Notes under the pieces: generated by a model
Database searches by the model: none
The model's input: only the letters and a program-made list of their open reading frames with translations
What the model was told of the DNA's origin: nothing
Program-made: the position numbers and the translations under genes
Assembly (NCBI GenBank): GCA_031213475.1
Contig: JARUPZ010000015.1
Span: 8,832,528-8,896,527, forward strand
Direction: 5' to 3'
Source of the DNA: Nereocystis luetkeana
Lineage: Eukaryota > Sar > Phaeophyceae > Laminariales > Laminariaceae
DNA length: 64,000 nucleotides
Shown here: piece after piece, positions 562-62,664 of the stretch
Position numbering within the stretch: position 1 is the first letter of the stretch
Layout: each line of letters begins with the position of its first letter

Positions 562-686
562 ACGGGGGACCATACGAATAGGACCAAACGTTGTTTGTAA
601 AAATAGGGAAATATATACCAGGTACCAGATAGGTTTTTGTGTGTGCCGTAGGTCCTATTTATTTACTACCAGGTATGGTCCCCCGT
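562..686. mobile_element. Family A MITE, copy 1
   Basis: Terminal inverted repeats CGGGGGACCATA and TATGGTCCCCCG are flanked by A/T. The internal AGGACC/GGTCCT pair is present. Compared with other copies, the right arm carries an extra CCAGGTA at 667-675, making TACCAGGTA. Confidence 0.8.
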
Positions 687-1060
687 TATAGTCCCCAAGC
701 AAAACTTGGGGTGTGGTATACCCACTGGTAGTGTAATCTACGAGAGCAAATATTAGACCTGCGAGTCGTCAGGCTTTCACGACCAACAACTTGTCGTCAG
801 GTGCCGTTACGCAACGAACTGACTTTAGTCGGCAAGTCGGCGGCGAAGCCAACTGATGGCCAAGCCGACTTGTCGACTTGAGTCAGTCAGCCCTCCCTGG
901 CCAAGGGGGCCCCGCCCAAAAAAAGAAAAAATCCGCAGTCAACAATTACTTCTTCCAATACTCGCATGAGAACCCACTAAGTCGGGCAGTCGGCACCTCC
1001 GCTGCACGGCTAACCAATAGTCCGACCATGTACGAACTACTGTATGAGGCAGTTGATTAC

Positions 1061-1172
1061 TTGAACCTTTTTAGGACTGCAGTCCCATTTTGGGGACAAA
1101 ATACAAAATACTACCATGGTAGGATTTTGGGTGGATTCGCCCTCGAAACGGGACTGCAGTACTATAAGAGTC
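1061..1172. mobile_element. Family B MITE, copy 1
   Basis: Left arm AGGACTGCAGTCCCATTTTG and GGGACAAA; right arm CTCGAAACGGGACTGCAGTA. The left AACCTTTTT corresponds to the AACCCTTTT terminus of better copies. Confidence 0.7.
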
Positions 1173-1215
1173 AAGTCGAGTCGTGGCATCTCACAGTTCT
1201 AAGAAACATGCTACT

Positions 1216-1574
1216 ATATACACTACGGTCGCCCCGGTGATTCAAGTGGTTAACCTCGAGTTCTACTTTTGTTTGAGTCCTGGGTTCGAGCCCCAGGTGG
1301 GTCGGACATTTGACTTTATCTGCAAAAATAAAATAAAGAGGATTCACATGTTGAGAGCGCCTTGCAGCGTGGGTAGGCACAATTCGATGCGAGTCGACGA
1401 GGGAAGAAAAGGCTGAAATCTTCTCGCGATAAAAATGAAGGCACGTACCGTAGCGGGAAGGGGGTAGAAGAACCTGCTATGTGACCCCGGATCTGAGTTA
1501 CGAGTTGGAAGGAGAGAGAGAAGATGTGCGAAGATAATAAATGGGATGAGCAAAAAAAAAAAAAAAAAAAAAAA
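1216..1574 (+). mobile_element. SINE family 1, copy 1 (tRNA-derived, poly-A tail)
   Basis: The head has tRNA-like pol III boxes: an A box (GATTCAAGTGGTTAACC) and about 45 bases later a B box (GGGTTCGAGCCCC). The body carries GAGCGCCTTGCAGCGTGGG and the core CGCGATAAAAATGAAGGCAC, then GTTACGAGTTGGAAGG, and ends in 23 A. The second copy at 46.18 kb has the same order and length and is highly similar along its length. No clear target duplication was found by eye. Confidence 0.9.
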
Positions 1575-1579
1575 GCGGT

Positions 1580-3430
1580 CCCCCTATACGAATGGTGCTG
1601 TTATGCGCCCGCCAACAATACCGGCACTATAGCAGCAACCGGCACTAGTAACAACACATTACCACACTGGTGAATCCCATCTGTCTGTGCCAAGCGATTC
1701 CGCAGCCACCGGCACTATAGAGGGACCACTACTGCTGTGTACCTGGTATCATACGTGAGAGAAGACCGCGGTTTGACTCCTTTGAATTACGGCACCCGTA
1801 CTAAAACTTGTACATATATTTAGGCAATGAAGGCCTTGACACGAAGATCTCTGTGTGGTCTAAACGCCAGGGGGGGGTCATCGTTTGCCTCTCGCGACCG
1901 TAAATATGTCGAACGTTTTCACCTCTCACATGTGAATATCAAACGGGATGATCTTTCCAGACAAAGTGACGATTTTCATTTCCCCCTGCCCCACGCGCCG
2001 TAAAGGGTGACACAAGCAAGTGTGTCGGTTGATGTTCTACAATGTACAGCCGTATTCATAGTTTTGAACTGACAAGGCCTCTTTAGACTAGAGGGCACGG
2101 TGGGTGTTATCCACCCCCTATCCCCGGGTTTCCGGGTGACGGCACGGACGCAGGCAGCATTATTCTACCCGTAATGCTGGGCGTTGACGCTGCTCGTAGA
2201 CGGTTGATATACACCCAACCTTATTTTTGGTCGCTATCTTCAACACCCAAGGAGGTTAATACATCGTTTCACGTACCAAGAACTACAGCAGTACCATGGC
2301 TGGCTATTGACTGCATCACCGATGAAAAACGGATCTCACCAAACGGCCACACGGGCTTGTTTACTCGCGGATAGTTCAAACTACCGGTATGCGGTATAGT
2401 TTCATACAGAGCGCATATGATACCAATATTTTTGGTAGTCGTACATAGTCGTACATACTGCTGGGTGCTCCATTACGTATGGCCGGTTGATCAGTACTGC
2501 ACGCGTCGGGCACATCAGATAGATCAGATAGACCAGATAGACCCTAGCCTGCCGTTCTGAGATGCTGTGCGTGCCCCGCAAGTACAGATCCAATGCAGGA
2601 ATTTTGCGCTTCCTCATGCAGATTATACGAGTCCCACGCGGCGACATGAGCTATAGATCACACAGATCAGGAATCCGTCTGTCCTGACATACACATCTAC
2701 CTGGTAGATCATAAAGCAGGGAATCGATTTCCTGTCCGATATGTGCAACACAGTGCTGCATCTGGCTTAACCAGCTTTAGTCGCGAAACCTTCGTCCAAA
2801 AATGGGCGGGTGCTCGCTAATCAGTACCTGTTGTGATCGTGTGACCTTAATTGAATTCACGATTTTTACGATTTTTCCACGCCGGGCCCAAGAGTTCAAA
2901 ACCCCAAATCCTCATCGAGTCTGACTGATGGTCATTCCTACTGTTTACGATTGCAGTGGATGCCCCGCAATGTGACAGTCTTTGATTGATGAGGCAAACG
3001 TGGAGATGAGGCAGGCTGAATCGGCCTATCCCGATTTTAAGCTCAACATTGTTGTGTCCTGGCGATTTCTCCCGCTTCAACCCCTTTGGGTGTTGAAGCT
3101 AGTGGACCAACACAATGGTTGGCGACTTTGGGGTTACTAGCCATTGAACGTCTACGAACAGCAGCGTGAGCGCCCAGCTTTACGTGTAAGATTATGATGC
3201 GCCTCTGTGCCGTACGCCTTTCGACTCCTCGAGTCGCAATTCAGGACACCAAGTTATTACTCTGTCCCTCAATATAAGGACAAATTTTATACTAATATTC
3301 AATCAAAACGATACTCATATTTAGGGACGTAGTTGTATACCGTTCCCTAATCACGCGGTGAAATGGATGGTTTCCCTTTTTCCCGCCAATTTTCGTCCCC
3401 TGAAGCCCCAAGAGGGTTGATAATCCTTCT
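1580..3430. other. No gene seen
   Basis: Between the SINE and the first A/B MITE pair I see only short frames. One at 2,174-2,374 (+) is faintly protein-like (TPKEVNTSFHVPRTTAVPWL) but has no supporting splice sites. A (-) frame at 2,847-3,080 is equally weak. A GATC-type repeat occupies 2,490-2,710. Confidence 0.5.
2490..2710. repeat. GATCAGATAGATC-type repeat, copy 1
   Basis: CATCAGATAGATCAGATAGA, GCCGTTCTGAGATGCTGTGC and ACACAGATCAGGAATCCGTC. The same blocks, reversed, occur at 42,940-43,160 (ATTCCTGATCTGTATGATCT, GCGCACCATCTCAGAACGGC). Confidence 0.55.
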
Positions 3431-3433
3431 ATT

Positions 3434-3534
3434 CCGGGGGACCATAGTAAATAGGACCTACGTTACACACAAAAACCTATATATTCCACTAATGTTCCTA
3501 ACAATATTGGGTCCTGTTTACCATGTTCCCCAGT
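3434..3534. mobile_element. Family A MITE, copy 2
   Basis: The left arm is CGGGGGACCATAGTAAATAG and the right arm GGTCCTGTTTACCATGTTCC. It is immediately followed by a family B element, with no spacer. Confidence 0.8.
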
Positions 3535-3535
3535 A

Positions 3536-3627
3536 AATAGTACTGCAGTCGTTTTTTTGGGGACAACCAGTCTAATTATCTCAAGTAGTTTGCCCCCAAA
3601 ACGGGACTGCGGTCCTAAAAGCGTTAA
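3536..3627. mobile_element. Family B MITE, copy 2
   Basis: AGTACTGCAGTCGTTTTTTT and GGGGACAA on the left pair with GCCCCCAAAACGGGACTGCG and GTCCTAAAAGCGTTAA on the right. It directly follows a family A copy. Confidence 0.75.
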
Positions 3628-4439
3628 GGCCGGTTTCGGCCTTATATCAAGTTGAGGTATACGTGGCCTTCAATCGGGATGTTTTTCTTCATCAATAAGG
3701 CAGGTTCAACTGCCAACTCCCTTATCTCATTCATACCTGTTTTATTATGGTGTACCTACTGTACCAGGTATAGTATCATGCCCATGGGGTACATATTTCG
3801 TCTCGCGGGTGTATAGTAGGGTATTCTGCTGCACTACTTTGGATGGAAATGTAAGGACCGTAAGTCCTCAAAAAGGGTCGAATATCACCCCGTCACAATA
3901 CGGTCTTACCTCTAGTATTGTACCTGGCAGGGTGTGATCGTTTACTGCTGAAAAAATAATTCCCTGCTAAATTCTGCGGAGTGTTTTTTTTTTCGTGACA
4001 AGCCGATTTGCCCGGTCTTGTCTCTGCAACCAGGTATGGCCTTCAACTGGATGGTCTTGAAATGGGTACACCTCTGTTTTGTTGTACGTTTATCTTCTCA
4101 GGCTAGGCTCCTTATGAATAACAACAGGTACACGAGCCAATCTCGTGAAACTATTGACTGTACTCTTACGTACGGAACGAAATGATACTCGTATGAAATA
4201 CCTGCACACCTGTTTAGACGTGCACCCACCCCCCACTAATGTGAAGAACACACAGCAGTACACACACACATTTTTGGGGGACAGACCACACTGTTTGTAC
4301 AGTACTACAAAAATAGGGTACCGGTTTGTGGGCATCGATGCTGAAAAGATGGCTCGCAGCGATCAATCCAATGCTTGCGGCGTAGACGTAAGTACACAAA
4401 GTTGCGTGAGATTGAGGTTGCGACATAAGACGTTTTGAC

Positions 4440-5944: not shown

Positions 5945-6879
5945 AGTGGTGTTCGTTGTTGTTGGCATTGGCATCGGCCAATGCACGTACCTGCGGTAGT
6001 GTATGGCCGGCACTTTTTGTTTCGTGCCGATCATCCCCGAATCGATATGTACTAGTCGAGCGCTGAGTACAGTTGGGGCAGTGGCAACATTGGATCACAC
6101 ACAGAAATACGCAGAAGAAGCAGCAGTGAGGTGATTACTGGTGTGGTGGCGGCGTTTTCAAGTTATCGATCGCAGTCACCGATAAAGCAACTAGCCGCAA
6201 GACGATCAGCCATACGCGCAAGGTGCTGCCCGCTGCTGCTGCTACTGCTGCTGGGCGGCAGCGGCAGGGTTGTAGTGCCGTAGGCAGCTGGAGATAAGCA
6301 CGCTCTGTGCACTACTGCTATTGCTGTCTGGGCTGTGGGCCGTGCTCTGTTAAAAAAACGAAAACAAAATGTACCGGTACATACATACTTCAGCCTGAAA
6401 AAAGGCCTCTCGCACTGAAACCGGGGAGATCGTCTTTTCCACCCCCGCCGAGAAAAAATATTTGAGGGCTTGCCACGCACTCCAGAATGCACGGATCGCG
6501 CCCGGACCTTGACCAATGTGTCTCGCCGGGGTTCCTCTGTCGACTGCGTAGCGTTTTGCCAAAAAGAGGTTGTACGAAGCGATATGTTCGAAAAGTACCT
6601 ACCTGGTATATTTTCACAAACATGGCTATTAATATTGGATCACGCTTTTGAGACTTATTTGCAAGTCGTTCATTCCCTCGTCAACGACAACAGACAGTAC
6701 TGGTAGTTATTTCCGTGAATATCACGTATTGTATCTCACTTTTTCATCAATTTCTTACTCTTGTTCTCGACAGGTATACGAGTCAACCGCGTGAACCTAT
6801 TTGCCGCGATAGGAGGGGGGGGGGGGGGGGGAGAAGCACCAGCCTTCTTTTGGCTGTTGTAACCAGCGGAAGACTGCGC

Positions 6880-9334: not shown

Positions 9335-9373
9335 AGTTAATCAGCCCATGGGGAACTTGAACACATACTGTAA

Positions 9374-10255: not shown

Positions 10256-10467
10256 ACAGACATACCTGGTAGAGCATATCAAACTAAGAAAATAAGTACA
10301 GCAGTATTATGTGGCGTCCGAGCTGACGTCGGAGCTGTTTTTTCCTGAAGCATGGCGGCGGGACTCTTGGCATTATCAAGTCGCCGGTTTGCAATTACGA
10401 TCCTTCAAAAAACTAAATTCAATCGTGGACCTCTGTGCGCTTCGCTTAATTTGATGTACTTTTTTCC

Positions 10468-11527: not shown

Positions 11528-11640
11528 TACGGGGAGCATTGTAATCAGGACCCAATATGGTTGCTGAACGTTCTGGAGTATACCAGGTATAGTTTTTTGT
11601 GCCTATGATGGGGTCCTGATTACTGTGTACCCTCCCGTAG
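11528..11640. mobile_element. Family A-related MITE, AATCAGGACC subfamily
   Basis: The arms TACGGGGAGCATTGTAATCA and TGATTACTGTGTACCCTCCC are inverted relative to each other. They share the outer CGGGG and inner AGGACC of family A but have a different linker. It contains TACCAGGTA at about 11,581. The 25.49-kb element is a second member. Confidence 0.65.
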
Positions 11641-12069
11641 TAAGATGGTTGGATCAAGAAATCGTCCTCAGCGGCAAGCGCCACACTATATCCTTCCGGT
11701 ACACGATAGCTTATATTTCTCAAGGCCCTCCAAGGATGGTGTCACCATAAGGTTCTAAGGCGGGGCCAATACTCTTACACCTGCACCACCAAACAACTCC
11801 AATGCTACCACTCGTACGGTAAGGAGCTCATCCGCCTACTAACTCTACTCTCACTCGTGCGTAGTATCAGTTTCGAAAGCGGCTTGTCTGTTTAGACTCA
11901 CGGTCCGTCAGTGCTGGTAGTTTGTCGTGGTGCGAAGACACCCACGCCCGCGTCGAACTGACTTTTTAACACTCATTATTACTAGTCGAGACTGAATATT
12001 ATTCATGAGTCCTGAATATTAACATTTGACAGGCGTAGTTCCTTGAGTTGGTGGCCTAAATACACAAAA

Positions 12070-14214: not shown

Positions 14215-14445
14215 TCTTCACGGGTCATGACCCGACCCGTGGGTCGAGTCGGGAAGGTTTTGAAATCTCACGGTTCGGGTCGGGTCGGGTCGGATCGGGT
14301 CGGAATCGGGTCGGATCGGGTGGGGTCTAGTTCAGGTCGGCCCGGGTCAGGAGATTTTCAAAGTCTCACGGATCAGGTCAGCTCACCATTACCCGACCCG
14401 ACCCGACCCACGAGGTTTGACCCGACCCGTGAACAGCTCTGCGTT
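14215..14445 (+). repeat. Family F element with degenerate GGGTC core
   Basis: GGTTTTGAAATCTCACGG is followed by about 15 imperfect GGGTC units, then TCAGGAGATTTTCAAAGTCT, CACGGATCAGGTCAG, ACCCGACCCGACCC and GAGGTTTGACCCGACCCGTG. The same flanks surround the expanded satellite at 40.57 kb. Confidence 0.75.
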
Positions 14446-15924: not shown

Positions 15925-16550
15925 CATTAATTTGGTGTCTGTAATGTCATGGGCATTGAATAGCTTTGCCGGTAGTTTTAGGTTGAGAAGTGGATAAGCT
16001 GGTTTACTGGCACTTGGTCTCAGCATAAGCGTCATAGCCATGGCGTCATTTAGTTCAAGAACATTTGGTTGACCCCGTATTTGAGGCCATTGCTGTGGCT
16101 CCTGCTGAGACTAACTTTGCAAAACATTGTCGACTTCTTAACCGCAACTGTCAGTAAAGGAATAGTTAATGCCAATGCTGTTACCAAAACCAACCGCATG
16201 TTGATGGGAAGGCTGCGGCGTATACCGATGCCAGTGTTGAGGCCAATTTAACGCTACAAGAAGTTGGTGATGATGAGGCGCGACCTCAGTACCTGCAGTA
16301 ATCAAATATTCTACCAGTATGCGTCATGCTGGGCGAAAACGGATTTTTGTGCTGAACCAACACGAACGATCATCTGCGTACGCGGTCGTATGTATCCTTG
16401 AGGTTTGGGTCCATTCCTTTAAGAACAAAGAAGTCGGCAGCAGCAGCAGCCGCAGCAGCAGCAGCAGCAGGGCACGGAAGCCAGGGTCAGCGTCACCGTA
16501 CGGTCGGCCTGTCGGTCTAACCCTTAAACCCTTTGTAGACGTACTTGATT

Positions 16551-17410: not shown

Positions 17411-17852
17411 ACAACAACATGGCCCAGGCATGTACCTACACACGTTGCCGCACCTACGAGTAGCTCGACCAACTCCGAACGACTTAAAACCACGCCAACA
17501 CGAGCAGGCTTCGTTTGTGTGTGTGTGCACAGAGCTCGCGGGGACTGGTATTTGTTGCCGTGTGCGTTGAGCGCGGTAGACAAACGTGACCGAAAAAAAT
17601 GCTGAATCACATACACGCACTCACACTTACAGAGAAACAAACAATAGGCACCCTACGCTCGTACGATCCGTTCTGAAGAGGGGGTTCTTCCCTTGGAGAA
17701 CAAACAAACACACAAAAGAAAAGAAGACTCGCGCTCCTCATTACCAGCAGTGATTACTGCATACGAGTGCAGTATTATATTACTATCGCAGATGCCACTT
17801 CTGATGCCAATGCTGACACTACTGTTACGCCTTGGCTGCAGAAATGCTGTAT

Positions 17853-18354: not shown

Positions 18355-19430
18355 ACGGGTACTGCGCTCTCCATTGATTCGGTGGTGCGTGCTGTTGTAC
18401 GTACTACTGGTGTTGTTGTACGCATACATGCGTTGCCGCTGCTTTCATCGGCACGTTCTTCTACTGTTGTGTGATTATGCTATAGTAGGAACGTGTATGG
18501 TTCTTGCAGACAGATACCCTCGTAGTGCGGTACTGCAGGGGACGGAAATAAAAGGGGCATTGATATATTTCAATGCATACTAAACGCTCCTTGTATTTCC
18601 GTCCAGTTCTGTATGTCTTGCAGGTTCTTCTGCTGTGATTGCAGACAAACCTGTGTGGTGCGTACTGCTGTACATATTATGGTGCAGTTGTACGCGTACC
18701 TGGTACAAGCGATGACGCTGCTGTCAGCAGCACGTACTTCAGCTGTTATACGATTATGCTATAATAGAATGTACGCTGCTGTCAGCAGCACGTACTTCAG
18801 CTGTGATGCGATTATGCTATAGTAGAAACGTGTGAAGGTCTTTCCGACGGACACCCTCGTAGTGCGGCACTGCCGGGAACGGAAATATATGGAGCACTTG
18901 TATATTTGAATACAAACTAAACTGGTTCTGTATGTCTTGCAGCAGTGTTTGTAGGCATAGCGTGGTGCGTACTGCTGTATGCACTACTGGGGTGATTGTG
19001 CGCGTACATGCGATGACGCCGCTGTCGGCGGCACGTACTCTTGCAGCTGTGCGAGTTATGTTGATGTAGAAACGTGTACGAGGCACCTGGTACCGTTCTT
19101 TCAGATGGATACCCCCGTAGTGCGGTACTGCTGGGGACGGAAATATAAGGAGCATTGGTATATTTGAATGATCACTAAACGAAGATTTGAATTCCGTCCA
19201 GTCCTGTGTGTCTTACAGCTGTGTTTGAAGGCAAAACCTTGTGTGGAGCTTGTATCTACTACTGGTATGGTTGTACGCGTAGATTTGATGACGGTGCTGT
19301 CAAGCGCCACATACGCGTGCTGCTGTAAAGGCTGTTGTTGCCGAAGGAATGTGGATTGTGATGTAAGGTGTATACACTCCTGCTGTTTTAGTACGCGTAC
19401 GAGTAGGCAGTACTTCATCAACCCGATGGA
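18355..19430 (+). repeat. Tandem repeat, about 270 bp, four units
   Basis: Each unit contains GCGTACTGCTGTA, GTACGCGTACATGCGATGAC, GCTGTCAGCAGCACGTACTT, a CGATTATGCTATAGTAG segment, AGACAGATACCCTCGTAGTG, CGGTACTGCAGGGGACGGAA with TATAAGGAGCATTGGTATAT. A shorter internal duplication is present near 18,720-18,830 (GCTGTCAGCAGCACG twice). It lies in intron 3 just after the candidate exon at 18.19 kb. Confidence 0.8.
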
Positions 19431-19439: not shown

Positions 19440-22300
19440 CTTCACCGCTTGCAGCACTGAGTCGAAAAAAAGCAATGACCAGGTTTCAACGCGAAAACAT
19501 ACCGCAACAATCATGAGTATTCGCCTGCCTCGTGACACGCACACACAGGAATTTCATTTACTGCGCGGAAAGAGGGACGTAGTTTAGACCTTCACGGAGC
19601 GCAGACCAGTCCTCCTGTCGCGTTGATCAAGAGGTTGCCTTTAGTCGCTACGCAGTTTTTTTGCTCTACACAGACATCGAGAATATGTTAACAATTTTAT
19701 CTCCCGCCCCTCACCGCGTTGCGATATGAACCACAGATGAAATCCGAGGCAAGGAAAGAGACTGACCAGGTGGTTGCGGAGAGAGCGGAGGGGGTGCACA
19801 GGGGGGGAGACAACATGGGAAACAAGAAGGGGGACTAGGGGGGCGACAGTATTGGGGGCAAAAACGGGGGCGAGGGCAGAGGCACTAAAGGAGACGAGAA
19901 GGGGTGGTGGAAGGGGCTGGATGTCGGCTTCCTTTCAGTCGCGGGATCAGTACACAGGGAGCGTCACTTTTGTTTTGTCCCTCGCGTATCGGCCGTCTCC
20001 TTTCTCGCGAGGCTGGCTGTCTGTTATCTATAAACGCCGAACAACCCTATACATGTAAAGCGGTTGAAGGATCAAACGAGATGAGTTTTCGTGTGGGAGG
20101 CCTTTAGGACGGCGGGGTCAATTTTTTTTCTTTTTTATGCCTCCCGGAGAGCGAGAGGAAACCCCTGTCCACACTTATTTATCAAGTTTTCGTTTACCGG
20201 TTCGAACCCGGTTCGTTTCTTAGTCGGGCCTGTCTCTGACCGTCATCAAAGTGTGGTTCACTCCGAGGATGTAGGCACCTGAGTCTAGTTATTATCAACT
20301 TCAATTCTAGCGAGCACGGTTCCCGCTTTTTTTAATGGCAATGCGCGCATGATACCAAAACCCACAATATCCATGATGTTCTGTTTTCAAGGTGTTACAC
20401 AGACGCCTGCGTGACAAATGTTTTATTTCTAGTGTAGCACCAAAGGCCTAGGGCGACATCCCAGGTTGAAGATCCCCTGGTTTGTTTTGGGGGATAATGT
20501 GATGAAAAGTCCCCTACTATCCCCCAAACATTCGCGGGTTGATTTACTCATGGTACCGGTAATAAGGCCAAACAAGATAAAACAAAACAAATATATTGTA
20601 GGGTTCCAACGAGTTCTTACCGGCTGCAAAGGAAAAAATAAGATAACGCCCAGAACCGCCGGGTTTGCAAAGTGCCTCAATGGCGCTGAACGTCACAGGG
20701 CATACTATTTGGGGGGCGGGCATCATTAATTCGTCGCTGGATAGTCATCAACCTCGAGTAACAATCCAAAAAAAGAGCAGTTCAGCAAGAGAGCATGGAA
20801 CTGGAGATGCCGGTGAAAAAATACTCGGTGGCACTGAATTTCCAGAGCTAAACGAATCCGGGGGCGGGGACAATTAATCCATTGTCGGGTTGCCGACTTT
20901 ACATATCAATCTATTAGACAGTCCAGCAAGAGATGGGAAACATCAATTTGATAAGTCACTTGGCATTCTGTGGATTTTATTGAAAACGCCCGTGCGCGCA
21001 AAATTTTGCTTCGCTCGCCAATCTGAACCGGGCTACAACCCCTAACACGGCCAAGCCGCGTGGATTGAAGCTTCCCTCGGATTATTCGACCTTGTTCTTC
21101 TCTAAAACGTGTGTGGCTTTTCAGGTGGGGAAGTTTTTTTTCTCTCCGAGAGGGGTTTTTCAATGGTTTCGAAACGGCCGCTTCGGATCAAACAGTTCAT
21201 TTTCCTTTATTTGAAGAACTGAGCGCGCAGGAGGATAAATACCTCCAATATCGGATGGCGCCCTAGTTACACGTCAAGAAAGTTGGCAACTTTGTGTTAC
21301 TTGATTGAAGGGTACGGGAGTTAATATCCTCTACTTGATCTGTGCCGTGATGGAGAGGATGTTCCTACTACTATAGGGGCGCGGCTCCCGGATATATACA
21401 CGTCCCACGTTCCGAGAAAAAATATGTCGAACCCAACGAAACTTGACGATTGGTCGGTCCAAGAGGAACACCACCAGGGTTTCCATACCGGTATCGTGTG
21501 GTTACCTCATGGAGGGTATGTATAGCGGTCACATGACATCCCAAATTCACAGTCACGAAGAGACGCGACGTCAGGGTTGTGACAGATGACCTCCCTGCGG
21601 CATGTATCATACGGACAAAAAAATACCAGGTAGATGTCGAAAGTATAGAGATCAGCAACGACGAACAAAACAGCCTGGAAGATTCGGCATGCGTGTGCAT
21701 GACCGGCACAGGGCGAAAGCACAAAAAACTCACGCAGACAATCTGTTTATTATCTTGCTTCACCGAATGATCGTGGAAGGGACACCCCACCCCCCCCTTC
21801 CCCCCCTCCCGAGTCACTATTATAGGGAAACAGCACAGTTCGCCTTGCGGCTCTCTCGGCAATATTACATTATTATATTACAGGAAGCACCGCTGCCACT
21901 TGGGTAAACCACCTCGTATCCTGCAGATAGCGACCAAGTACAAATCAACATTCGCCGAATTCGAATATACAGGTTGGAAGATAATTCGCCGCCCCCTCCA
22001 CGGCGTTGCTCATTATCAACAAACAGCGCGCGCCATATAACGTCCCAACACTACTGGCGGGACGCCCACAGTAGATGATTTCCAGCAGTAATAACAAAAA
22101 TTATTCATGCCGCGCAAAAGCACACGAAGAGGAAGCCAACGCTAACCCTAACATCCCTGAAGTGAAAACAAATCTCTCGTCAGCACACCACACGTGTCAA
22201 CTATCAAAACCTGCTTGCCTCACTATTTTTACGTGCGGCCGGCGAAAATTCAAGTCTGCGAATACACACAGAACCCACTCCGTAGCAGACGTCGTCTGTG
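19440..22300. other. Intron 3 sequence without a clear gene
   Basis: A purine-rich stretch at 19,770-19,910 and weak (+) frames at 20,665-20,877 (QKKSSSAREHGTGDAGEKIL) and 21,579-21,770 (YQVDVESIEISNDEQNSLED) were noted. The last is protein-like but has no good acceptor. The region near 22,070-22,310 may be the 3' untranslated part of the nested antisense gene. Confidence 0.35.
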
Positions 22301-25970: not shown

Positions 25971-26080
25971 GCGGGGGACCATATTAAATAGGACCTACGG
26001 TACACTCAAAAACCTACCTATTTTGCGATTTTTACTACTGCTGTAGCAATATTTGGTCCTATTTACTACGGTCCCCCGTA
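25971..26080. mobile_element. Family A MITE with TACTGCTGTA insertion
   Basis: The arms are GCGGGGGACCATATTAAATA and ATTTACTACGGTCCCCCGTA. Where most copies read TTTTTACTAACAATATTTGG, this one reads TACTGCTGTA at 26,036-26,045: an extra CTGCTGTA next to a TA. Confidence 0.85.
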
Positions 26081-27474: not shown

Positions 27475-27695
27475 GTGTACTCATGTCAGGTATGACCGTA
27501 GTTGTATGAACATAGACCCTCGAATCCCTGCAGTGCCGGCTTGGGGCACATCGGTTTTTCACCGACCAGGCAGGCGTTACTTGCACCAAGCGGCAAGCGC
27601 CGTGAGGTTTTCAGCGAGTCGCGTGAAGGGTGAGCTGCATCCCAATAAGAACCGCTTTTGAGGCGGATTTTTTTGCATATGGATGACAGCGGCGA
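27475..27695 (-). mobile_element. Family D fragment, reverse orientation
   Basis: The reverse complement contains TGTCATCCATATGCAAAAAA, CTCACCCTTCACGCGACTCG, the GCAAGTAACGCCTGCC segment and ACAACTACGGTCATACCTGA, ending at a G-run (C-run on this strand). It lies in intron 4, after exon 4. Confidence 0.65.
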
Positions 27696-33678: not shown

Positions 33679-33847
33679 TACATGTTGCCACTTTTGCCGG
33701 AATTTTATCCCCGTTCGCAGTCTGATATACAAATGTGTACCTGAATTTTCGTGCAGACTACCACCGATTGGGCGCTAAATCTGCTGCTATGAATAATACG
33801 GGGCCGGTCCTGTGCGGCGCTTCGGGGCCTGTTTTGGCCTTTACCAT

Positions 33848-33973
33848 TACGGGGGACCATAGTTAATAGGACCTATGGTATACATACAAACCTATTTGGT
33901 ACCAGGTATATGTTTAACCATTTTTACTACGTACAGCAACTACATTTGATCCTATAAACTATGGTCCCCCATA
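33848..33973. mobile_element. Family A MITE with two internal short insertions
   Basis: The arms are TACGGGGGACCATAGTTAAT and AAACTATGGTCCCCCATAAT. Relative to the reference it has TTTGGTACCAGGTAT in the middle (TACCAGGTA at 33,900-33,908) and an extra CGTACAGCAACTA after TTTTTACTA. Confidence 0.85.
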
Positions 33974-33988
33974 ATAGTACAAGATTTA

Positions 33989-34095
33989 GTACGGGGGACC
34001 ATAATAGGACCAGTGGTACACATAAAAACCTACCAGGTATATATTTAACCATTTTTACTAACAATATTTGGTCCTATTAACTATGGTCCCCCGTA
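33989..34095. mobile_element. Family A MITE with TACCAGGTA insertion
   Basis: The arms are TACGGGGGACCATAATAGGA and TTAACTATGGTCCCCCGTA. It reads CCTACCAGGTATATATTT where the reference reads CCTATATATTT, a clean gain of CCAGGTA after TA (34,031-34,039). It lies 16 bases from the previous copy. Confidence 0.88.
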
Positions 34096-34351
34096 AAAAT
34101 AGGGTAGGGGCGGTGAGTCGAGGGGTAAGAAAGGCCCCGTTTGACCGCAGTATGCTACTTTTAGTGTTGGGGGCGGTCGGGGACGGCCAGTCCAGAGGTC
34201 AAGCCGCGGTCTCCTCTCTCAGCGCCTTTTAATTGTGAGCAGCGGGCAGAGCCGCGCGATGTTTTTGGAAACCCCTATTTCTGCCGTCGCTGCCGCCACC
34301 GCAGCCCTTCTTGGAATCGCAGTCACCTTCAGTGTTGTTAGTATCACAGTA

Positions 34352-34462
34352 TTACGGGGGACCATAGTTAACAGGACCTACGGTACACACAAAAACCTAC
34401 CAGGTATCTATTTACTTATTTTCACGAGCAATATTTGGTCCTATTTACTATGGTCCCCCGTG
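34352..34462. mobile_element. Family A MITE with TACCAGGTA insertion
   Basis: The arms are TACGGGGGACCATAGTTAAC and TTTACTATGGTCCCCCGTG. TACCAGGTA occurs at 34,398-34,406, at the same TA as in the 33.99-kb copy. Confidence 0.88.
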
Positions 34463-34484
34463 ATAGTATGGCTACTTTTTGTGG

Positions 34485-35925: not shown

Positions 35926-36295
35926 GCACAAGTGAGAATTATCGTATCAAGTAGTGTTTATGGTGAGGCACCCAAGAGGCAGTTACATAGTGCTCCCATT
36001 GCTGTCTCTGGAAATGCCTAAACCGGAAATTAAATAACTCAATTGAAGCTGTCATCCACATGCAAGTCCGCCTCAAAGCGGTTCTTAGTAGGATGCAGCT
36101 CACCCTTCATGCGACTCGCCAGACACCTCACGGCGCTTCGCGCTTGGTGCAAGCAATGTCTGCCTGGTCGGTGAAAACCGGAAATGCTCCGTCCCGGCAT
36201 TGTAGGGATGCGAGGGTCTATGGTCTATGGTCATACGACTACGGCCATGCATGAGATCGAGTACATATCTCCTATCGAGTACACCCCCCCCCCCC
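35925..36295 (+). mobile_element. Family D element, full copy upstream of exon 10
   Basis: It contains GGTGAGGCACCCAAGAGGCA, GTGCTCCCATTGCTGTCTCT, GAAGCTGTCATCCACATGCA, ACCTCACGGCGCTTCGCGCT, CCGTCCCGGCATTGTAGGGA, TACGACTACGGCCATGCATG and GAGTACACCCCCCCCCCCCC. A duplicated 3' end (GAGGGTCTATGGTCATACAA ... GATTACCCCC) follows at 36,300-36,385, with a C-rich tract to the acceptor of exon 10. Confidence 0.82.
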
Positions 36296-36632
36296 TCAGA
36301 ATCGAGGGTCTATGGTCATACAACTACGGCCATGCATGAGAGCGAGTGTATCTCTCCTATCGATTACCCCCTCCCCCCCCCCCCGCCATCACCCTGCATC
36401 GTTCCCCTGTCACCCCTTCCCCACCCCACCCCTCCATTGTCCCGCCTCCGCCCCCCCAACCTACCGCAATCTACCCCACGCCACCCCATCCCACCCGACC
36501 CCACCCGACCCCACCCGACCCCACCCCACCTCACCCCGCCACACCACCCTACCCTACCTCACCCCTCCCTTCTCCCGCCCCGGCCCAATCTATCCCCACA
36601 TTACCCCCCCCACCTCACCCCCTCCCCTGCAG

Positions 36633-38214: not shown

Positions 38215-39319
38215 AACAAGAAATTGTGCTATCGAGGGAGACGGCCCTCTATTGTTTGGTGCGCTAAGGCCGCTTCTGGTCTTATTATACTAGGTTTAGT
38301 GTAGGAGGGTGGTCAGCCAAGGGCCCTAAAACCGCGGTCTCCGCCCGCTAACATTGCTGCACGAGAGTAGGCTCGGTGTGTTGTTTTCGACGGTTTCGGT
38401 TTAGTCTACCGACGGTTTCGGCTTTAATGTACCGGCTCTGTTCTCGGTACCCGGGGGGGGGCATGCGCCGGTGGCAGAAGGTTGGGGGGGGGGTTGGTGA
38501 GGAATGGGAGGGGGAGAGGGGGAACGGGGTGAGGGAGGGGGGGAAGGAGGGATGGAGGCAGCGAGGGGGGGGACGGAGGAGACAAACGGAAGGAAGAGAG
38601 CGTGGGGGAAGAGGTTTGGCGATGGGCGCTGCTGCTCCGCTCTGTTTTGCTCTGCCCTGCTTTATGGGTGGGGAGAGGTGGCGGGGGAGGGGGGGGGGGG
38701 GGTTGAAGGGAGGAAAGGAGGGAGGTTTGACGATTGTCGCTGCCGCTGTGCGTTGTTTTATTGTTTGTTCCTGTACAGCGGTGGGGGAGGGGGGTGTAGA
38801 GGGAGGGATGGAGGGAGATTAGGCGATTGTCGCTACTGCTCTGTTCTGTTCTGTTCTGTTCTCCCCTTCTCTGTCTGAGGTGGTAGAAAGTGCGCTGGTG
38901 ATAGCGGCCCGAAGATAAGAGGATAGGGCTGCGTGACGGCCGCGGCAGCAAAGCAAACGTCGCGGCAACTCCCCTTTCTTCGTGCGCCCTGCCTCGCCCT
39001 GCCTGTTGCAGCTTTTTAATTTCTCTGTCAGCGCTGTTTTTACCGTCTCTGTGGGTGCATGTGTACGCCAAGGTTTCGTCTGACTTTTTTTCTTTCTCCA
39101 TTATTTTTTTTCTCGTGTTTCGCGTCTTTTTTTTTTTCTCTGGCCTTTTCTCGCTCTGTTTTTTTTTCTTGTTTTTTTTCTTTCGTTTTTTGGTTCTGTC
39201 CGTTTTATTTTTGTGTTTTTTTTCTCCGTTCTTCCTGTTTTTTTCTTCCTGTATTCAGTAAAAAACCTGGGGCTCTCAGCTATAGAGAGGGGCGGCCGAG
39301 AGGACGGGGAGAGGGAGGG

Positions 39320-39430
39320 GGGGGGGGGGTGTACTCGATATCAAGCATGGCCGTAGTTGTATGACCGTGGACCCTCGCATCCCTACAATGCCGGGACGCA
39401 GCACGTCGGGTTTTCACCGACCAGGCAGGG
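39320..39430 (-). mobile_element. Family D 3' fragment, reverse orientation
   Basis: GGGGTGTACTCGATATCAAG, CATGGCCGTAGTTGTATGAC and CGCATCCCTACAATGCCGGG are the reverse of the element's 3' part. It starts at a long G-run, the expected C tail. Confidence 0.7.
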
Positions 39431-40129: not shown

Positions 40130-41760
40130 CTCCACCTCCTTGCGCCGCGTGTACCAACTCCTCTAGGCGGCTGATAGACAAATGGTTGATGGGGGTGGAC
40201 TTACAAACGGTTGCTGCTATACGATTGGGCGGTGTGATGTCGCACGCAACAGCGTGAACGAACACCTCAGATGGTTGAAAAGATAATGGTTGATGGGGGG
40301 GGGGGTGGTTGATGGATGAATGGAAAGATCGGATCAGATCAGATGCCCCGTTTCATGATCTAGATCGTTGAGGGGATGGTTGGTGGATGGCTGGACAGAT
40401 CGGGCCCCCTTTCGTGATCTAGATCTTTGGGGACAGACGGATACAAACAGACAACTGATTTACATGGTTTTGCAAGATCTGTAGACTATGTTTTCCGGGT
40501 GGCATCTGTGCGACACAGCTCTTGCACAACATCTCATAACGGCGAATATAGCAGGGCCCTTATCGGGTCCGGAAGGTTTTGAAATATCACGGATCGGATC
40601 GGGTCGGGTCGGGTCGGGTCGGGTCGGGTCGGGTCGGGTCGGGTCGGGTCGGGTCGGGTCGGGTCGGGTCGGGTCGGGTCGGGTCGGGTCGGGTCGGGTC
40701 GGGTCGGGTCGGGTCGGGTCGGGTCGGGTCGGGTCGGGTCGGGTCGGGTCGGGTCGGGTCGGGTCGGGTCGGGTCGGGTCGGGTCGGGTCGGGTCGGGTC
40801 GGGTCGGGTCGGGTCGGGTCGGGTCGGGTCGGGTTGGGTCGGGTCGGGCCGGGCCGGGCCGGGTCAGGAGGTTTCCAGATATCGCGGGTCGCTTGGGGTC
40901 ACCGTTGCTCTTCCCGATCTGACCTGGCCCTCAAGGTTTGAACCCGCCCGTGAACGGCCGGTGAGTTTAGGATTTAGATGGTCTAGACCGTGGCCTGCCC
41001 GATGTTTGGAATGATGGTTGATTGATATAGGAATGGTTGATTATGTTGTACGATCGGACGGTGTGATGCAGCATGCCACAGCGTGAGTGAACACCCCAGA
41101 TGTTTTGATGGATGACTGATTGACTGATGATGGAATGGTTTATTGGTTCATGGGGAAATGGTTGATAAGTGATCGGGCGGTACTGTTGATGCAACAGCGT
41201 TAACAGACGGATGGCGGCGGCCTGACGTATAATTTGTGGGTAGGAGCATGAAACCGTGTGATGCGATGAAAATAGGCGTGAGCACCCCAGACGGTTGAAA
41301 TGTGACTTGAAAATGGAGTATTAATATTAGTGTTGGCTGAATGGTGAAAGACTGCTTCAACTGCGCGAACATCACATACGTACGTGTAGTTGATGGAAGG
41401 CGGACGCTGGCTGACGGATAGAGAAAGGCTTGTCGATTTGTTGGACGGATGCAAAATTTGCAACAGCGATGGTTACTGGATGGGCTAACGATGGAAATAC
41501 TGCTTGATTAATGGAAACTGCTCGACAGATGATTGGGCGGTATATATGATTGACGCGGCGTGAAATATCACGTGTAGTTGAAGGGTGACGGCTAGAATAG
41601 TTGATTTTTGTATGGGACGGTGTGTGATGCGCCAACAGCACGCGTATAGACTGCTGCGTGAGCCACCGCGTGGAAACCCCAGATGACGGATGAGGTATCG
41701 TGGTTAATGGTGTTGATGGTGTATTGCAAGAGGCAGAAAGAGAGAGCAGGGGCCCCACCC
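40130..41760. repeat. Degenerate GGGCGGTGTGATG satellite region
   Basis: Repeated TGGTTGATGGATGAATGG blocks alternate with CGATTGGGCGGTGTGATG, CAACAGCGTGAACGAACACC and CCCAGACGGTTGAA. At least six partial units occur. The (GGGTC)n element interrupts it, so the satellite is older. Confidence 0.65.
40568..40955 (+). repeat. Family F element with expanded (GGGTC)n satellite
   Basis: GGTTTTGAAATATCACGGAT precedes about 50 nearly perfect GGGTC units (about 40,590-40,850), then GGGCCGGGCC variants, TCAGGAGGTTTCCAGATATC and TTTGAACCCGCCCGTGAACG. Repeated Gly-Arg-Val-Gly-Ser and Arg-Val-Gly frames are products of the pentamer, not genes. The flanks show that it is an expansion inside a dispersed element. 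Confidence 0.9.
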
Positions 41761-45285: not shown

Positions 45286-46183
45286 ACTATTAAATAATTG
45301 AAACGCACACCCCAAAGAAGAAAAAGTGAAACCAGCGTACACATGCATGTACGAGTACAGAGTTTATACGTTAATACTGAAGAATTTCAACCGAGGGAGG
45401 GCAGACGCATATACGCAGAGAAAAAAACAGTGAACGTATATGGCCTCTCTGATTGGTTCAAAGTTGGCAAAATCAGTTGAAAGGCAGACAGAGTAGAAAA
45501 AACAGGTACAACTTGGGCATTTTCGAGCCAAAATTAGTTACAATGCCAGCTTGGCCAATAGCAAGGCTCCTGGCGTGTGTTTCGTACTCGTTTTTAGACT
45601 GTAACTGATTTTTCCCGAAAAGCGGCCAGGTGTACCTGATTTTGGCAAAACCCCCCGAAAAAATTGTTCGCCAAAACCCCGCCGAGAACGAATGAGAGCC
45701 ACAATTACTGTAGTTGCCAGGTACCTGGTACCAGGTATGTACGTAAGGCAATCACCAAACGCAAAAAATTGACACGACAACAGGTGCTACACTTTGTGGG
45801 ATGACGCAGGGAACTCATCATCCTGTCTCTGTTTCTAGCCACGAAAGGGGCGCAAAAGCAAGTCTTGGAGATATTTCCACGCTCTCTGATGTTATTATTT
45901 CTCTTGCCATCCGACAATGTGCAGCATGATCTTCAAGAAGGATCACTCATAACTTTCCCGGAAGAACAAAACTCTGTGTTGTTATTGTTATGTTTAAAGG
46001 GCAGTATGGGTCTAAACACCAAACTCTACTATAAATAGCAGGTGTGCCCCTGGCTCTGCTCTGGTCACTCACGTAAGGTGCTTGACGATGCTTGGAAGTT
46101 TTTAGAATACCGAGGTGTTTTACTTAATACTTGATGTATTATTATTTTTGTGATCGGCACACAACTAAATCGCTCCGTATAGC

Positions 46184-50423: not shown

Positions 50424-50795
50424 ATGCCGATGATGTTGCGCTACTGCGCGAACGAGCTGAAGCTCGACTGGTGGACCGGTCGTGTCATGAAGCACTTTTT
50501 CTTCGAACAGCAAGAGCATGAGGTAGACCGCGCGTTCGCGTATATGTACCAGGTATCGACGAGTGGTTCGGCAGTAGCACGCAAGATAGCAACACGCTGT
50601 CAGACGAATTTCCAACGTGGTTTTCTCGACCGCAAGGACAATGCAAACGCCGAGGGATGGCTCCTATGGAACGATCTTGACGAGACCTTTCCAAAGCCAG
50701 CCTGTTCGTTGTGTGTGCCCCCCCGCAATTTTGGAGAAAATCGGCTCGGAAATGCAGCCCAGGGTGTGTCTTCGGTGTGTTTTATTTTCTCTTGA
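50424..50795 (+). CDS. Unrecognised ORF, 123 codons
   Basis: The frame starts MPMMLRYCANELKLDWWTGR, then VMKHFFFEQQEHEVDRAFAY, and continues with NAEGWLLWNDLDETFPKPA and a Cys pair (ACSLCVPP). Composition is balanced with aromatic residues, unlike the surrounding low-complexity frames. A donor (CAG then GTATCG) occurs after FAYMYQ, so only the first 44 codons might be exon. It lies just upstream of the RNA polymerase candidate start and could be part of that gene or an unrelated one. Confidence 0.35.
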   Translation: MPMMLRYCANELKLDWWTGRVMKHFFFEQQEHEVDRAFAYMYQVSTSGSAVARKIATRCQTNFQRGFLDRKDNANAEGWLLWNDLDETFPKPACSLCVPPRNFGENRLGNAAQGVSSVCFIFS

Positions 50796-51153: not shown

Positions 51154-51424
51154 GTGTGAAACGTTTTTATGACATGCCAGGTATAAAAAGTACCAAATCA
51201 GCAGCTGGTATACCAGGTACCTGGCATACGAATACAAGGTACCTGGTACTGCTGCTGTCAGTGGACAGCAGTATGTATTACAAGGCGTCCGCCCGCTACG
51301 CTCGCCCGCGAGGAAGAATGGAACGGGACAGACGGTCCGACCAATTACAGTAGGTGCAAACAGGCGACTTGCAAATGCCAACAGCTCCATGTTCCATCAA
51401 GGAAAACGCACGAACGTACATGCT

Positions 51425-59048: not shown

Positions 59049-59652
59049 GTGAGCGAATAACTGAAGCTGTAGACTCCGGTTTTAGTACGGGCGAGTGCGA
59101 GCTTTCTTTGTAGTTTTTCCAAGGCGCTAAAGCAATGGGGACCCCCCCCCCCCCTTTTCGATATAGCTGAAGCCGGATGAATCTACGTACGATCGTCGAC
59201 ATGTAGATTAATATATGGAAATACAAGCTACGTCCTGCCACTGGTATGAAGATCAAACGGCCCTAAAGACTGACGCCGAATGCAACACCCCGAGAGCATG
59301 GCATGTGAAGAGCTTTTTTACTTGCCTTCATGTTCGCGCTGCTGATGATGACTGCTGTATGACCGATATAGACACGAACGACGTGGCGGACCACTATTCA
59401 TATGGAATAGACTTCAGAGTAGCAGTTCTGGACTCAACCGATGGAGGTGCAATCACTATTTGTAGAGATGGGAGAGCGGCGCGGTAGCCACAATCGGGAA
59501 AAGGGGTCATATGGTGTATTCTCTCCCTGCAGGGGGCCGAGCGCAATGAAACGAACCGAGGGCACCGTGGAATCAGATAGATAGGCAACGCGGGCGTTTG
59601 CGTTATTAATAGTTGTCGTGAAACACTCTTGGAAGTTATACTGCATAGTATC

Positions 59653-59860
59653 ATGGCCCCTACGTACTTATACATGATGGCGAGACCTACTGGCGGCCTT
59701 CTTTTCATCAATCCACGTGTCGTCTATATACCGACGCCAGTGTCAGACGCCCTCTGCTGTTGTCCCCCTGCCTCCGCGCTCATGCACCGCCGATCGTACC
59801 TCACCACAAAGGGCCTCCAGTACGTCCGGAAACGGCATGCTCCCACGGCGCTGCATGAAG
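59653..59860 (+). CDS. Three-exon gene of unknown function, exon 1
   Basis: An open frame with ATGs at 59653, 59674 and 59677 runs to a donor (GAAG then GTGTGA) at 59861, leaving phase 1. The peptide includes MMARPTGGLLFINPRVVYIP, a Cys/Pro segment, and a basic end LTTKGLQYVRKRHAPTALHE. Phase 1 is what the acceptor of exon 2 needs. No family is recognised. The frame also runs on to a stop about 40 bases later, so it could be a stand-alone ORF. Start and membership in this gene are uncertain. Confidence 0.3.
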
Positions 59861-60553
59861 GTGTGATATTCTTGGAGAGAGACGCGATCATCGTATTGTA
59901 TTGACTCGCTAGAAAAAAAAGTAGAGGCCCAGATGAAGCGTTGCAGATATATATATATATGTATACACCTGACCCGGACATGTCCTCTACGTGATATACG
60001 TTATGCTGGTGTGATTTACGGTGTATGTGCCGTCGGATGTTAGGCGCTTTCTGTTCATTCTTGCGCCACTCCCCTAGGCAAATCCTGGAGGGGAAACGTA
60101 AGCCTGTAAATAATATATTTCCAGTTGATGAACACCAAGACGCTTGGTACTCCATCTCGAAGAGACGCATTTGCGAACAGAGCCTCTTATTGTAGTAGCG
60201 CTGCAGTCGCCTTATACAACAATTCGTGTAGTCACGTTCTACTACAGTCGGTGCGCGTATCTCTGCCTCGTCAAGGTAGGAATAGTAGAAGTATCAGCAG
60301 CAGTAGCGGTAGCAGTAGGAGTGTTGAAAGTAGTAGCAGTAGTTTTAGCAGGAGTCTTCATAGTTATCAATAGTAACAGCAGTAGTAGTAGTAGCAGAGC
60401 GAAGCACGCAGCAGGATGCAGGACACGGAACGATCGAAAATCATAAATCGAGCGAACGAAAATGTAACGACCGTAAATACACCATCACACCTTTTTCACG
60501 CAACGCCTCCACAAGGTGTATGAGATTTTCTGTCTACATGCATTTTTCCCCAG

Positions 60554-60843
60554 GGTTTGCAAGGACCCGAGACGCTCGGCGGTGGAAAATTCGGTGGCTG
60601 CTGCTTCCAGTAGTCTGTGCGGCACCGCTGATCGGCGTTGTCGGTGGGCAGCACGTTGATTCCGCCAGTGGCCTCAGCGGCAACGGCGCACGGCCTGTTA
60701 ACGACTCAGGTTTCAGCGAAGATTACTTCGACGGGCTCATTCGTGACCTGCAGAACGCAATTTCCCGCGAAGACGAGCTTTTGCGGGAAGACCTCGAGTT
60801 CTCTCTTTTGCAGAAGGAGGAAGACCGCCGCGACGCGGAAGCG
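60554..60843 (+). CDS. Three-exon gene of unknown function, exon 2 (hydrophobic segment plus charged helix)
   Basis: The acceptor CATTTTTCCCCAG is excellent. Phase 1 input gives FARTRDARRWKIRWLLLPVV, then CAAPLIGVVGG: a basic stretch followed by a hydrophobic segment typical of a signal anchor or transmembrane helix with positives on one side. After a Ser/Gly linker comes an acidic amphipathic helix (EDYFDGLIRDLQNAISRED, ELLREDLEFSLLQKEED) that could form a coiled coil. A GTGAGC donor at 60844 ends the exon in phase 0; the frame stays open beyond it. No homologue is recognised. The composition is convincingly protein-like. Confidence 0.55.
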
Positions 60844-61542
60844 GTGAGCCAACGAGAAATGAAGGCGAACGTTTTGCCGTCTGAAGATGTTTTCGTTGTG
60901 CGTATGATACTCAGTCGTACTGTTTGTTACCTGGTGCCTGGTACACAGCTACAGTACCAAGCAAAAACGTAACTTGTGTGTGATGACGCCTGTTAGTTTT
61001 TGTGTCATCATCGCGTTTCGTATCGAGCTTAACTCGTGTTTACCCTTACACAGCGGCCTTTCTGGGCAAGCCGTGATCACAGGTAGTGCCTACCAGCATG
61101 TGGGGTTGTTGCCATCTCTTTCTCCCCCCTCCGGTACTTGCCTTCATTTATATCGTAAATATTGTATCATACCTCCAGTAGGGTTCATCAGCTTTTCTCC
61201 AATCACTGCTCGTCGATTTTCACGGAATTTTGTTACGCTTCAGGGTAGTTAGCCCTTGGTGTTTTTTGCCGGCGTCATAGACCCGACCGGTTAGTGGTCT
61301 CGAGATTGGGCACAGTAGGATACCATACTACTGCCTGTACAGCAGTACGGTGACCCCTGCAAAACCTAGAAATGCGTGACTAAGTCAATGGGTTATGACG
61401 TCATGATATTGGCAACCCTATATACCTACTATTACTATATATTTCCTTGAAAATAATGCAGCGATAGATACCAGGTACGCCTTAAAAATGCGGTCGACTG
61501 ATTCGCGTTGAACCGCCGCCGACTGATGATCGAACGATCCAG

Positions 61543-61752
61543 CTTGAACGTCTTCTTGGGGCAGCATGGGTGCCCACGACGACTGGTGACATGGCAGGGC
61601 CGCCACAATCGGCGGAAAGCTGGGCGTCGACCGTGTTTTTTATTCTAGGTGTTGGTGTGACTCTGTTGACCTTGGTGTCCGGCCTGGGCAGGGCAGCCTC
61701 AGCCAAGCTCAGGGCCCTCGCGACTAGGACCTCCACCACCACCGACATCCAG
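61543..61752 (+). CDS. Three-exon gene of unknown function, exon 3 (transmembrane helix)
   Basis: After GATCCAG, phase 0 reading gives LERLLGAAWVPTTTGDMAG, then a 20-residue hydrophobic stretch TVFFILGVGVTLLTLVSGLG followed by basic residues (KLRALATRTS). This looks like a single transmembrane helix. The donor is CAG-GTGAGC at 61753, phase 0. The phase matches exon 2, and the Leu/Glu helix of exon 2 continues naturally into LERLL. The upstream pyrimidine tract is weak, and the frame is open from 61486. No terminal exon was identified. Confidence 0.5.
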
Positions 61753-62664
61753 GTGAGCAATTCCTCTACTGATTACCAGGTTTGATGATGGAAAGGGAGG
61801 GGTGAGAGACAGGGAAGAGCTGGCAGCGTTGGAGATTCCGCCAGACACGGAGCAGGAGATACCCGCAATGTAGACACTGTAGACGTAACCATATACCTGG
61901 TATGAACTCGTGGTTTCAATAGCGGATCGGTGTAACTTGTCCGGTTACTTGCCGGATGGCTGCTCTTTTTCTTTTCCTTTTCGATGGCTCTCAAGGGCTT
62001 GTTTTAGGAATCACGTTTTTTTTAGGAAAAAACTCATGAAGCAGGACGGCCAAACCCACCTTTTTCTGGGCCAATATTCGTACCAACGTACCTGGTACGT
62101 ACATACGAGGGCCGATATCGTTTCCCTCGCCTTTTCGCGTGCAGTTGCTTCTGGGTTTGTTTCCACGAGAAATTAGTTGTTTTGGAAAAATGCTGATGAA
62201 GGCAGGACCCCACTGTTCACCTTTTTTTAGTCACTTCTCTTCTTGGACCCTAGCAAAGGTTGGAACGGATGATATGCATACGTGTCCCCCGGATAGGTGC
62301 TCCAGCAATATACTCGAATGCCTGGGGACGGCAGAGCATAGGGTGCGGTGAGGGCAGGGCTGCGGGGACGGGATATATATCGGCAAACAGGAAATGACCA
62401 TGTGTGTATAGAATACAGCAGGTCGACGTATTGTAGTGAAAAACAGAACAGGGGGTGATTTCGGTACGAAACGTGAAATACGGCCCGTCCTCTTGTTTTT
62501 TCGCAGCTTTTTTTAAGAGGATTTGTTTTACTTCCGGTTTAGACTGCTCTCTCCCGGTCGGATGGCGAAAAAGACTCTCTTGGGGGGACAAATTGTCTTG
62601 GGGTGTCGCTAATGGCGTTCAATCTTCGTTTTCGTGCACTCGTCTGGCTGGTTGGTCATGTAGC

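Follow-up and report, generated by a model that had tools for sequence, protein, structure and literature searches.

TACCWGGTA in the genome of the kelp Nereocystis luetkeana, an abundant TA-bounded palindrome resembling the excision footprint of a Tc1/mariner-like transposon

The excision footprint of the transposon Sleeping Beauty (SB) is TACWGTA, where W stands for A or T. In the present study, we analysed a longer palindrome, TACCWGGTA, found in a 64-kb stretch of Nereocystis luetkeana DNA (assembly GCA_031213475.1, contig JARUPZ010000015.1, positions 8,832,528 to 8,896,527, hereafter the window) and throughout the genome. This word probably represents the excision footprint of a Tc1/mariner-like transposon that targets TA and has CC..GG ends, many of the copies having arisen by independent events.

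The closest described systems include SB, ZB and Bari. They share with the kelp word a TA target, a palindromic footprint centred on A/T and a preference for ATATATAT, a target reported for ZB and, with reference to earlier work, also for SB and Bari (PMC7913693). Differences lie in the kelp scar, which has five bases between the TAs and not two to four (2-4 bp for ZB; PMC7913693), in the kelp target, which has an additional preference for TA 7 bp to each side, and in the donor, which was not found in the searches made. Passer, a member of the pogo group, also has TA within a palindromic consensus and short footprints, but these measure 0-4 bp and its target is AAGTACTT (PMC9976928). In grasses, the Stowaway miniature inverted-repeat transposable element (MITE)/Osmar5 system resembles the kelp case by short fragments of terminal inverted repeats (TIRs) between duplicated TAs and by re-insertion at the same TA, next to an older footprint (PMC1925063). 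It concerns one intron locus in several species with variable fragments of 1-4 bp, whereas the kelp has one dominant word in about 1.8e5 places of one genome. Finally, Ectocarpus, likewise a brown alga, harbours 17 families of Mariner-Tc1 elements, most copies being non-autonomous (PMC12477816); a search of the main text of that paper for 'excision' gave no occurrence, 'footprint' not having been searched for. Among the matches listed from the open literature, neither papers dealing with footprints nor those on transposons of kelps or on assemblies of Nereocystis gave an account of this palindrome or scar, and the papers listed as matching TACCAGGTA as a word appeared unrelated by title.

Most counts rest on 272 kb that were read, i.e. 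the window, an 8-kb locus (L001, see below) and 20 sampled 10-kb stretches (L009-L028), while the genome scanned comprised 465,085,209 bases in 1,987 contigs. An earlier note on this DNA had described the palindrome as scattered across the window; all 21 sites were recovered, whereas 100 shuffles that preserved dinucleotides held 0.47 on average and never more than 3. TACC also showed the strongest inverted-repeat excess in the window among the 256 four-base arms with one-base spacing (22 vs 1.1). The excess over a Markov expectation, a count that the note had proposed, was large and not local: the 20 stretches held 70 sites vs 1.73 expected (order 3), with at least one site in 19 of the 20, and the whole 465-Mb genome contained 182,395 occurrences vs 1,744 of the reversed, uncomplemented control word. 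Sites were clumped (mean 3.4 and variance 6.3 per 10 kb). In the 272 kb, one-mismatch versions of the word were also in excess (103 vs 52.1 expected), as were overlapping pairs of sites at 7 bp distance (6 vs 0.03 expected). Genome-wide, pairs at 14 bp followed by T numbered 612, vs 0 for the reversed control and about 32 expected if independent (assuming that T follows in 45 % of cases).

The note had further reported an A/T ambiguity at the centre. This is trivial when strand orientation is lacking, because the two words are reverse complements of each other; the centre was nevertheless rarely C or G (5 sites in the 272 kb, vs 94 with A or T), and the ambiguity held at two oriented MITE sites, where the exact gains listed had centre A in 20 cases and T in 18 (see below).

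The origin of the word could be followed in family A, a MITE of about 110 bp with TIRs TTACGGGGGACCATAGT and TA flanks, present at about 18 places of the window between positions 557 and 57720, some of them partial. When gaps in the self-alignment were listed blind to sequence, TACCWGGTA stood out as a gain of 7 bp whose two ends have exactly TA in common. The clean CCWGGTA gains claimed at 34,031-34,039 and 34,398-34,406 were confirmed against 9 and 6 aligned places without them, and a further one was found at position 2762 of L001 (12 places without); in these counts a palindromic copy may count on both strands. The gain claimed at 667-675 is real but lies beside four further extra bases in that copy. 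An alignment of 57 family A copies, also proposed in the note, revealed CCWGG-containing gains at about six different TAs (model positions 18, 25, 49-51, 71, 86-87 and 94); this set includes loci fetched for such sites (L029, L002-L008) and loci fetched for other reasons (L030-L041). Within the loci not picked for inserts (window, L001, L009-L028), the exact word occurred in 10 of 53 family A copies. There, 11 sites fell in 5.5 kb of family A and 83 in the other 266 kb, so that 83 of the 94 exact sites lay outside this MITE; TA density was 140 per kb in family A vs 53 per kb elsewhere.

Gap searches of the whole genome were then considered; their figures refer to the first 100 matches listed, in contig order and not as a random draw. 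When the pattern allowed 1-20 free bases at one of the TAs in the TIR (169 matches), CCWGGTA was contained in 25 of the 100 inserts listed and was exact in 19. The other inserts there included TA (12), CGTA (6), a second TIR copy (6), CATA (5), GTA (5), CWGTA (3) and CTCGTA (2). When that gap was moved away from the TA, 136 matches were obtained, and the 100 listed held no CCWGG insert: these were mostly changes of 1-4 bases and second TIR copies, together with the same five CATA, for which either placement works. The hottest TA, searched with a gap of 0-20 bases within an internal 20-mer, gave 1,345 matches; in the 100 listed, 63 were empty, 21 contained CCWGGTA and 19 were exactly CCWGGTA (12 with A, 7 with T). 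Rarer inserts at this TA comprised two of CCGG, three of a TATATTTCCC segment and isolated ones such as CCAGGGG, CGGG, CCCGG and CTGG. A second oriented site had CCAGG in 8 and CCTGG in 11 of the 100 listed. Both centres at one oriented site argue for more than one inherited insertion.

Variant products were likewise in excess, i.e. CCGG (17 vs 3.0), CCATGG (3 vs 0.4), CCAGGG/CCCTGG (6 vs 0.6) and CCCAGG/CCTGGG (2 vs 0.3), and these minor products are compatible with end joining. Other TA-bounded words were also over-represented in the 20 stretches: TATTAATA (34 vs 5), TACAGCAGTA (24 vs 1.3), TACGAGTA (31 vs 9), TACAGTA (75 vs 33) and TACATA (145 vs 77). Several of them also occur as TA-bounded gains, which suggests that they are footprints of further families.

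To characterise the target, 182 flank orientations were collected from the window and the 20 stretches, of which 136 were analysed after exclusion of 46 that belonged to tandem sites, lay within or close to family A, or met a sequence end. Preferences were found for T at -7, A at -6, A at -3, T at -2 and A at -1 (chi2 31.1, 55.3, 27.7, 12.8 and 35.1, respectively; at most 8.8 further out), giving the palindromic consensus TANNATA-TA-TATNNTA, whose core is ATATATAT. For TACCWGGTA the frequencies of T at -7 and A at -6 were 0.49 and 0.55, vs at most 0.32 and 0.38 for five other TA-bounded words.

Taken as an excision footprint, the word would arise as follows. A cut-and-paste transposon with CC..GG termini would enter a TA, preferably inside TANNATATATATNNTA, and duplicate it; staggered cuts at excision would leave a few terminal bases on each flank as 3' overhangs; these would anneal through CC and GG, with A:A or T:T facing each other in the middle, and repair would settle on A or T, so that TA-CCWGG-TA remains and the site is 7 bp longer than before. 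Scars of this kind, about 1.8e5 in number and for the most part located outside the control MITE family, would have built up over a long period, and full-length elements would be rare because often excised. The excision origin, the overhang pairing, the choice of centre by mismatch repair, the Tc1/mariner nature of the enzyme and the rarity of elements through frequent excision are all steps that we infer from the letters of the genome. They agree with gains that occur at a TA and duplicate it, with a residue, CCWGG, readable as a palindrome of both ends (W 94 vs S, i.e. C or G, 5), with a palindromic, AT-rich target around the TA, with overlapping sites and with the 6-bp TA-bounded length differences, of other words, between two near-identical orthologues (see below). 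The note's interpretation as footprints of a TA-targeting element is thus supported in part, by the gains at about six TAs, the TA-only gap test and the Tc1-like palindromic target. An element with CC/GG termini, whose absence from the genome the note had named as refuting, was not found in the searches made, which did not extend to a scan of the whole genome for unknown ends.

Several observations weigh against this interpretation. Footprints usually have 2-4 bp between the TAs, whereas five nucleotides are found here; the usual range is not strict, but because of this difference the kelp word is better said to work like such a footprint than to belong to the class. Furthermore, direct insertion of a 5-bp unit, whichever way round, would yield identical letters. 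No full-length element with CCWGG ends was detected by half-sites, by flank similarity or by TIR searches in the loci read. In the 272 kb, half-sites (TACCWGG with no TA after it) numbered 79, vs 61.7 expected for all TACCWGG; together with the one-mismatch excess, this leaves room for few full elements at most. Flanks of half-sites and full sites, in the most similar pairs listed, shared no similarity outside family A and tandem clusters, so that no conserved sequence extended beyond the 9-mer as it would in a MITE or TIR element. Half-sites at the hot TA gave 135 matches (reversed control 2); of the eight fetched, seven ran straight into the MITE, i.e. were variant or decayed footprints, and one was unrelated. 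Neither the DDE_3 profile (30 candidates scored) nor Transposase_1 found a match in the genome, the latter finding none in control genomes either. Lastly, in the one orthologous pair compared, L001 and L045, the exact CCWGG sites, three in number, were common to both, and the length differences were CTGGTA and TTAATA, not CCWGGTA.

The alternatives were weighed against the same data. An enzyme that deposits a 5-bp CCWGG unit with TA duplication at a TA, with no full element ever involved, would produce the same sequence anatomy; it would also fit the missing donor in the searches made and the dominance of exact CCWGG over other lengths (19 of the 37 non-empty inserts among the 100 listed at the hot site). 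We consider it unlikely, as variant products (CCGG, CCATGG and the six-base types) are present, as end joining predicts, and Tc1-type words (TACATA, TACWGTA) occur in the same gap test. To our knowledge, no enzyme depositing such a unit has been described. The sharing of a gain at one TA by several copies could instead reflect a 7-bp segment that was ancestral in MITE subfamilies and then lost, or that was spread by MITE amplification. Inheritance may explain part of the copies, but as a general account it is very improbable, for different copies carry the gain at different TAs, about six in all, both centres occur at oriented sites (CCAGG/CCTGG 12/7 and 8/11 among the matches listed) and 83 of the 94 sites are outside family A; the loss of an ancestral segment, raised in the note as a refuting case, is disfavoured.

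Genome-wide abundance (19 of the 20 stretches, though clumped) would also be expected of a selected or iterated palindrome such as a protein-binding site or a HIP1-like word, the latter arising and persisting by point change or selection, not insertion. The kelp word is gained as 7 bp at a TA relative to empty copies and not by substitution, its flanks carry the target consensus and its one-mismatch excess is consistent with decay; a HIP1-like word, suggested in the note, is therefore disfavoured, and we regard selection in either form as highly unlikely. Programmed elimination, in which germline elements would be cut out in the sequenced tissue and only the scars remain, would explain why scars are numerous in the sample and full elements few or absent; it is the least probable of these alternatives, since nothing found points to a developmental process and the tandem and decayed scars resemble an old mutational record.

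Returning to the excision footprint, the extreme activity claimed in the note does not follow from these counts as a rate, for few elements over a long time could give the same total. The ratio of decayed to exact sites roughly matches a steady build-up spanning about 0.16 substitutions per site (order-3 background, indels ignored), and few frequently excising elements would suffice over that time. It is quite possible that a single TA-targeting transposase lineage wrote about 182,000 near-identical 5-bp scars while full copies stayed so few that none shows in the sample, as a hit-and-run element or as an enzyme depositing the unit with no element involved. If so, small insertions in this genome would stem from it to a large extent, and past transposition could be read from the scars. 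The finding suggests that transposases, and not errors of replication, gave rise to many small insertions in the kelp, and it makes the donor worth locating. Whereas excision scars are usually studied at single loci or in cell assays, the kelp scar is short, oriented, recognisable, countable at a scale of 1e5 and accompanied by many natural empty controls, the MITE copies, so that repair outcomes, target choice and the age of the process become measurable in a wild genome.

Other TA-flanked elements were encountered in the genome. The DDE_1 profile gave 28 matches, and two loci had TA-flanked TIRs, starting with CAGTACCGGCC and GCRCCGGGG; by analogy with SB, the first type (L040) would leave TACWGTA, a word in excess (75 vs 33). 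A 2.9-kb pair of sites in L011, considered as a TIR pair, was dropped: its similarity lies mostly in the word itself and the AT-rich target letters, and its six open reading frames (ORFs) had no Pfam match. A de novo search for TIRs with TA ends in the loci read gave no donor.

The family A TIR had no match in viral contigs and matched one record of the prokaryote collection, a contig of the 'Flavimaricola' metagenome-assembled genome (MAG) g3_MAG_00016 (JALZWD010000061.1, i.e. L001). MAGs prefixed g1 to g4 belong to metagenome assemblies of Nereocystis luetkeana blades (PMC9238374). In L001 (1-8000 of this GTDB representative MAG contig), bases 15-3702 are kelp DNA at 99 % identity and the rest had no kelp match among the matches listed, so the contig may be chimeric. 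Over 3.7 kb, L001 and L045 differ by 31 substitutions and three length changes of more than one base: a CAG microsatellite, CTGGTA beside TACCTGGTA in one sequence, and a 6-bp TTAATA-type gain at TA in the other. Both non-microsatellite changes, each of which may be a gain or a loss, are TA-bounded; they come from one locus. Contigs C2, C809 and C872 (loci L042, L043 and L044) are 100 % identical over 7.0-7.5 kb; they are haplotigs or very recent assembly duplicates, and are uninformative on recent events because of this identity.

Table 1. Palindrome sites, family A copies and other TA-bounded gains of the window, with three TA-flanked elements of other loci (positions without a locus name are those of the window).
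Feature	Position	Strand	Basis or remark
Family A MITE copy	557..692	-	double CCWGG gain at about 609-630 and single gain at 667-675
TACCAGGTA	616..624	.	in 14-bp double gain at one TA (TATCTGGTACCTGGTA on minus strand; self-alignment gap at 615)
TACCAGGTA	667..675	.	gained at ACTA/TGG of family A, 4 further extra bases adjoining
TACCTGGTA	1740..1748	.	word scan
TACCTGGTA	2698..2706	.	word scan
TACCAGGTA	3762..3770	.	word scan
TACCTGGTA	6600..6608	.	word scan
TACCTGGTA	10263..10271	.	word scan
Diverged family A copy, gain at 11581-11589	11529..11642	-	alignment
TACCAGGTA	11581..11589	.	7-bp gain vs 1 aligned place
TACCAGTA	16312..16319	.	6-bp TA-bounded gain vs 1 aligned place (probably L001, by region)
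TACGAGTA, different footprint word	17455..17462	.	6-bp TA-bounded gain vs 1 aligned place (probably L001, by region)
TACCTGGTA	18697..18705	.	7-bp gain vs tandem paralogues; ends share GTAC, placement less clean
TACCAGGTA	21624..21632	.	word scan
TACTGCTGTA, different footprint word	26036..26045	.	8-bp TA-bounded gain in family A copy
Family A copy, 14-bp double gain TATTTGGTACCAGG at hot TA	33843..33978	+	alignment; self-alignment gap at 33,893
TACCAGGTA	33900..33908	.	within double gain
Family A copy, single gain	33987..34096	+	alignment
TACCAGGTA	34031..34039	.	clean 7-bp gain vs 9 aligned places
Family A copy, single gain	34350..34467	+	alignment
TACCAGGTA	34398..34406	.	clean 7-bp gain vs 6 aligned places
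Two overlapping sites TACCTGGTACCAGGTA	45722..45737	.	read as same place re-used
TACCAGGTA	50547..50555	.	word scan
TACCAGGTA	51211..51219	.	word scan
TACCTGGTA	51240..51248	.	word scan
TACCAGGTA	61469..61477	.	word scan
TACCTGGTA	61894..61902	.	word scan
TACCTGGTA	62089..62097	.	word scan
TA-flanked DDE_1 element	L040 235-2422		2.19 kb, TIR CAGTACCGGCC, frame with one stop
TA-flanked DDE_1 element	L038 1036-2951		1.9 kb, TIR GCRCCGGGGTGCGATAAAAA, open frame of 325 aa
TA-flanked TIR element	L027 6004-8057		TIR as in L040; two tested ORFs with no Pfam match

Regarding the remaining content of the window, 20 long frames were chosen among 360 stop-to-stop segments of at least 75 aa, with several longer low-complexity segments not included, and none of the 20 matched Pfam at E 0.01. 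An Rfam search at gathering thresholds gave no match, and ARAGORN found no tRNA. The region 1220-1310 holds GGGTTCGAGCCCC, a tRNA B box-like sequence that may belong to a tRNA-derived short interspersed element (SINE). A long array of (GGGTC)n type, with copies 10 bp apart, occupies 40520-40938, with a shorter relative at 14244-14334. Additionally, a dispersed repeat with ACGGCCATGCATGA was present on both strands (27484-27670, 30361-30475, 31970-32156, 36075-36380 and 39314-39428), its inverted pairs being 83-92 % alike among the matches listed.

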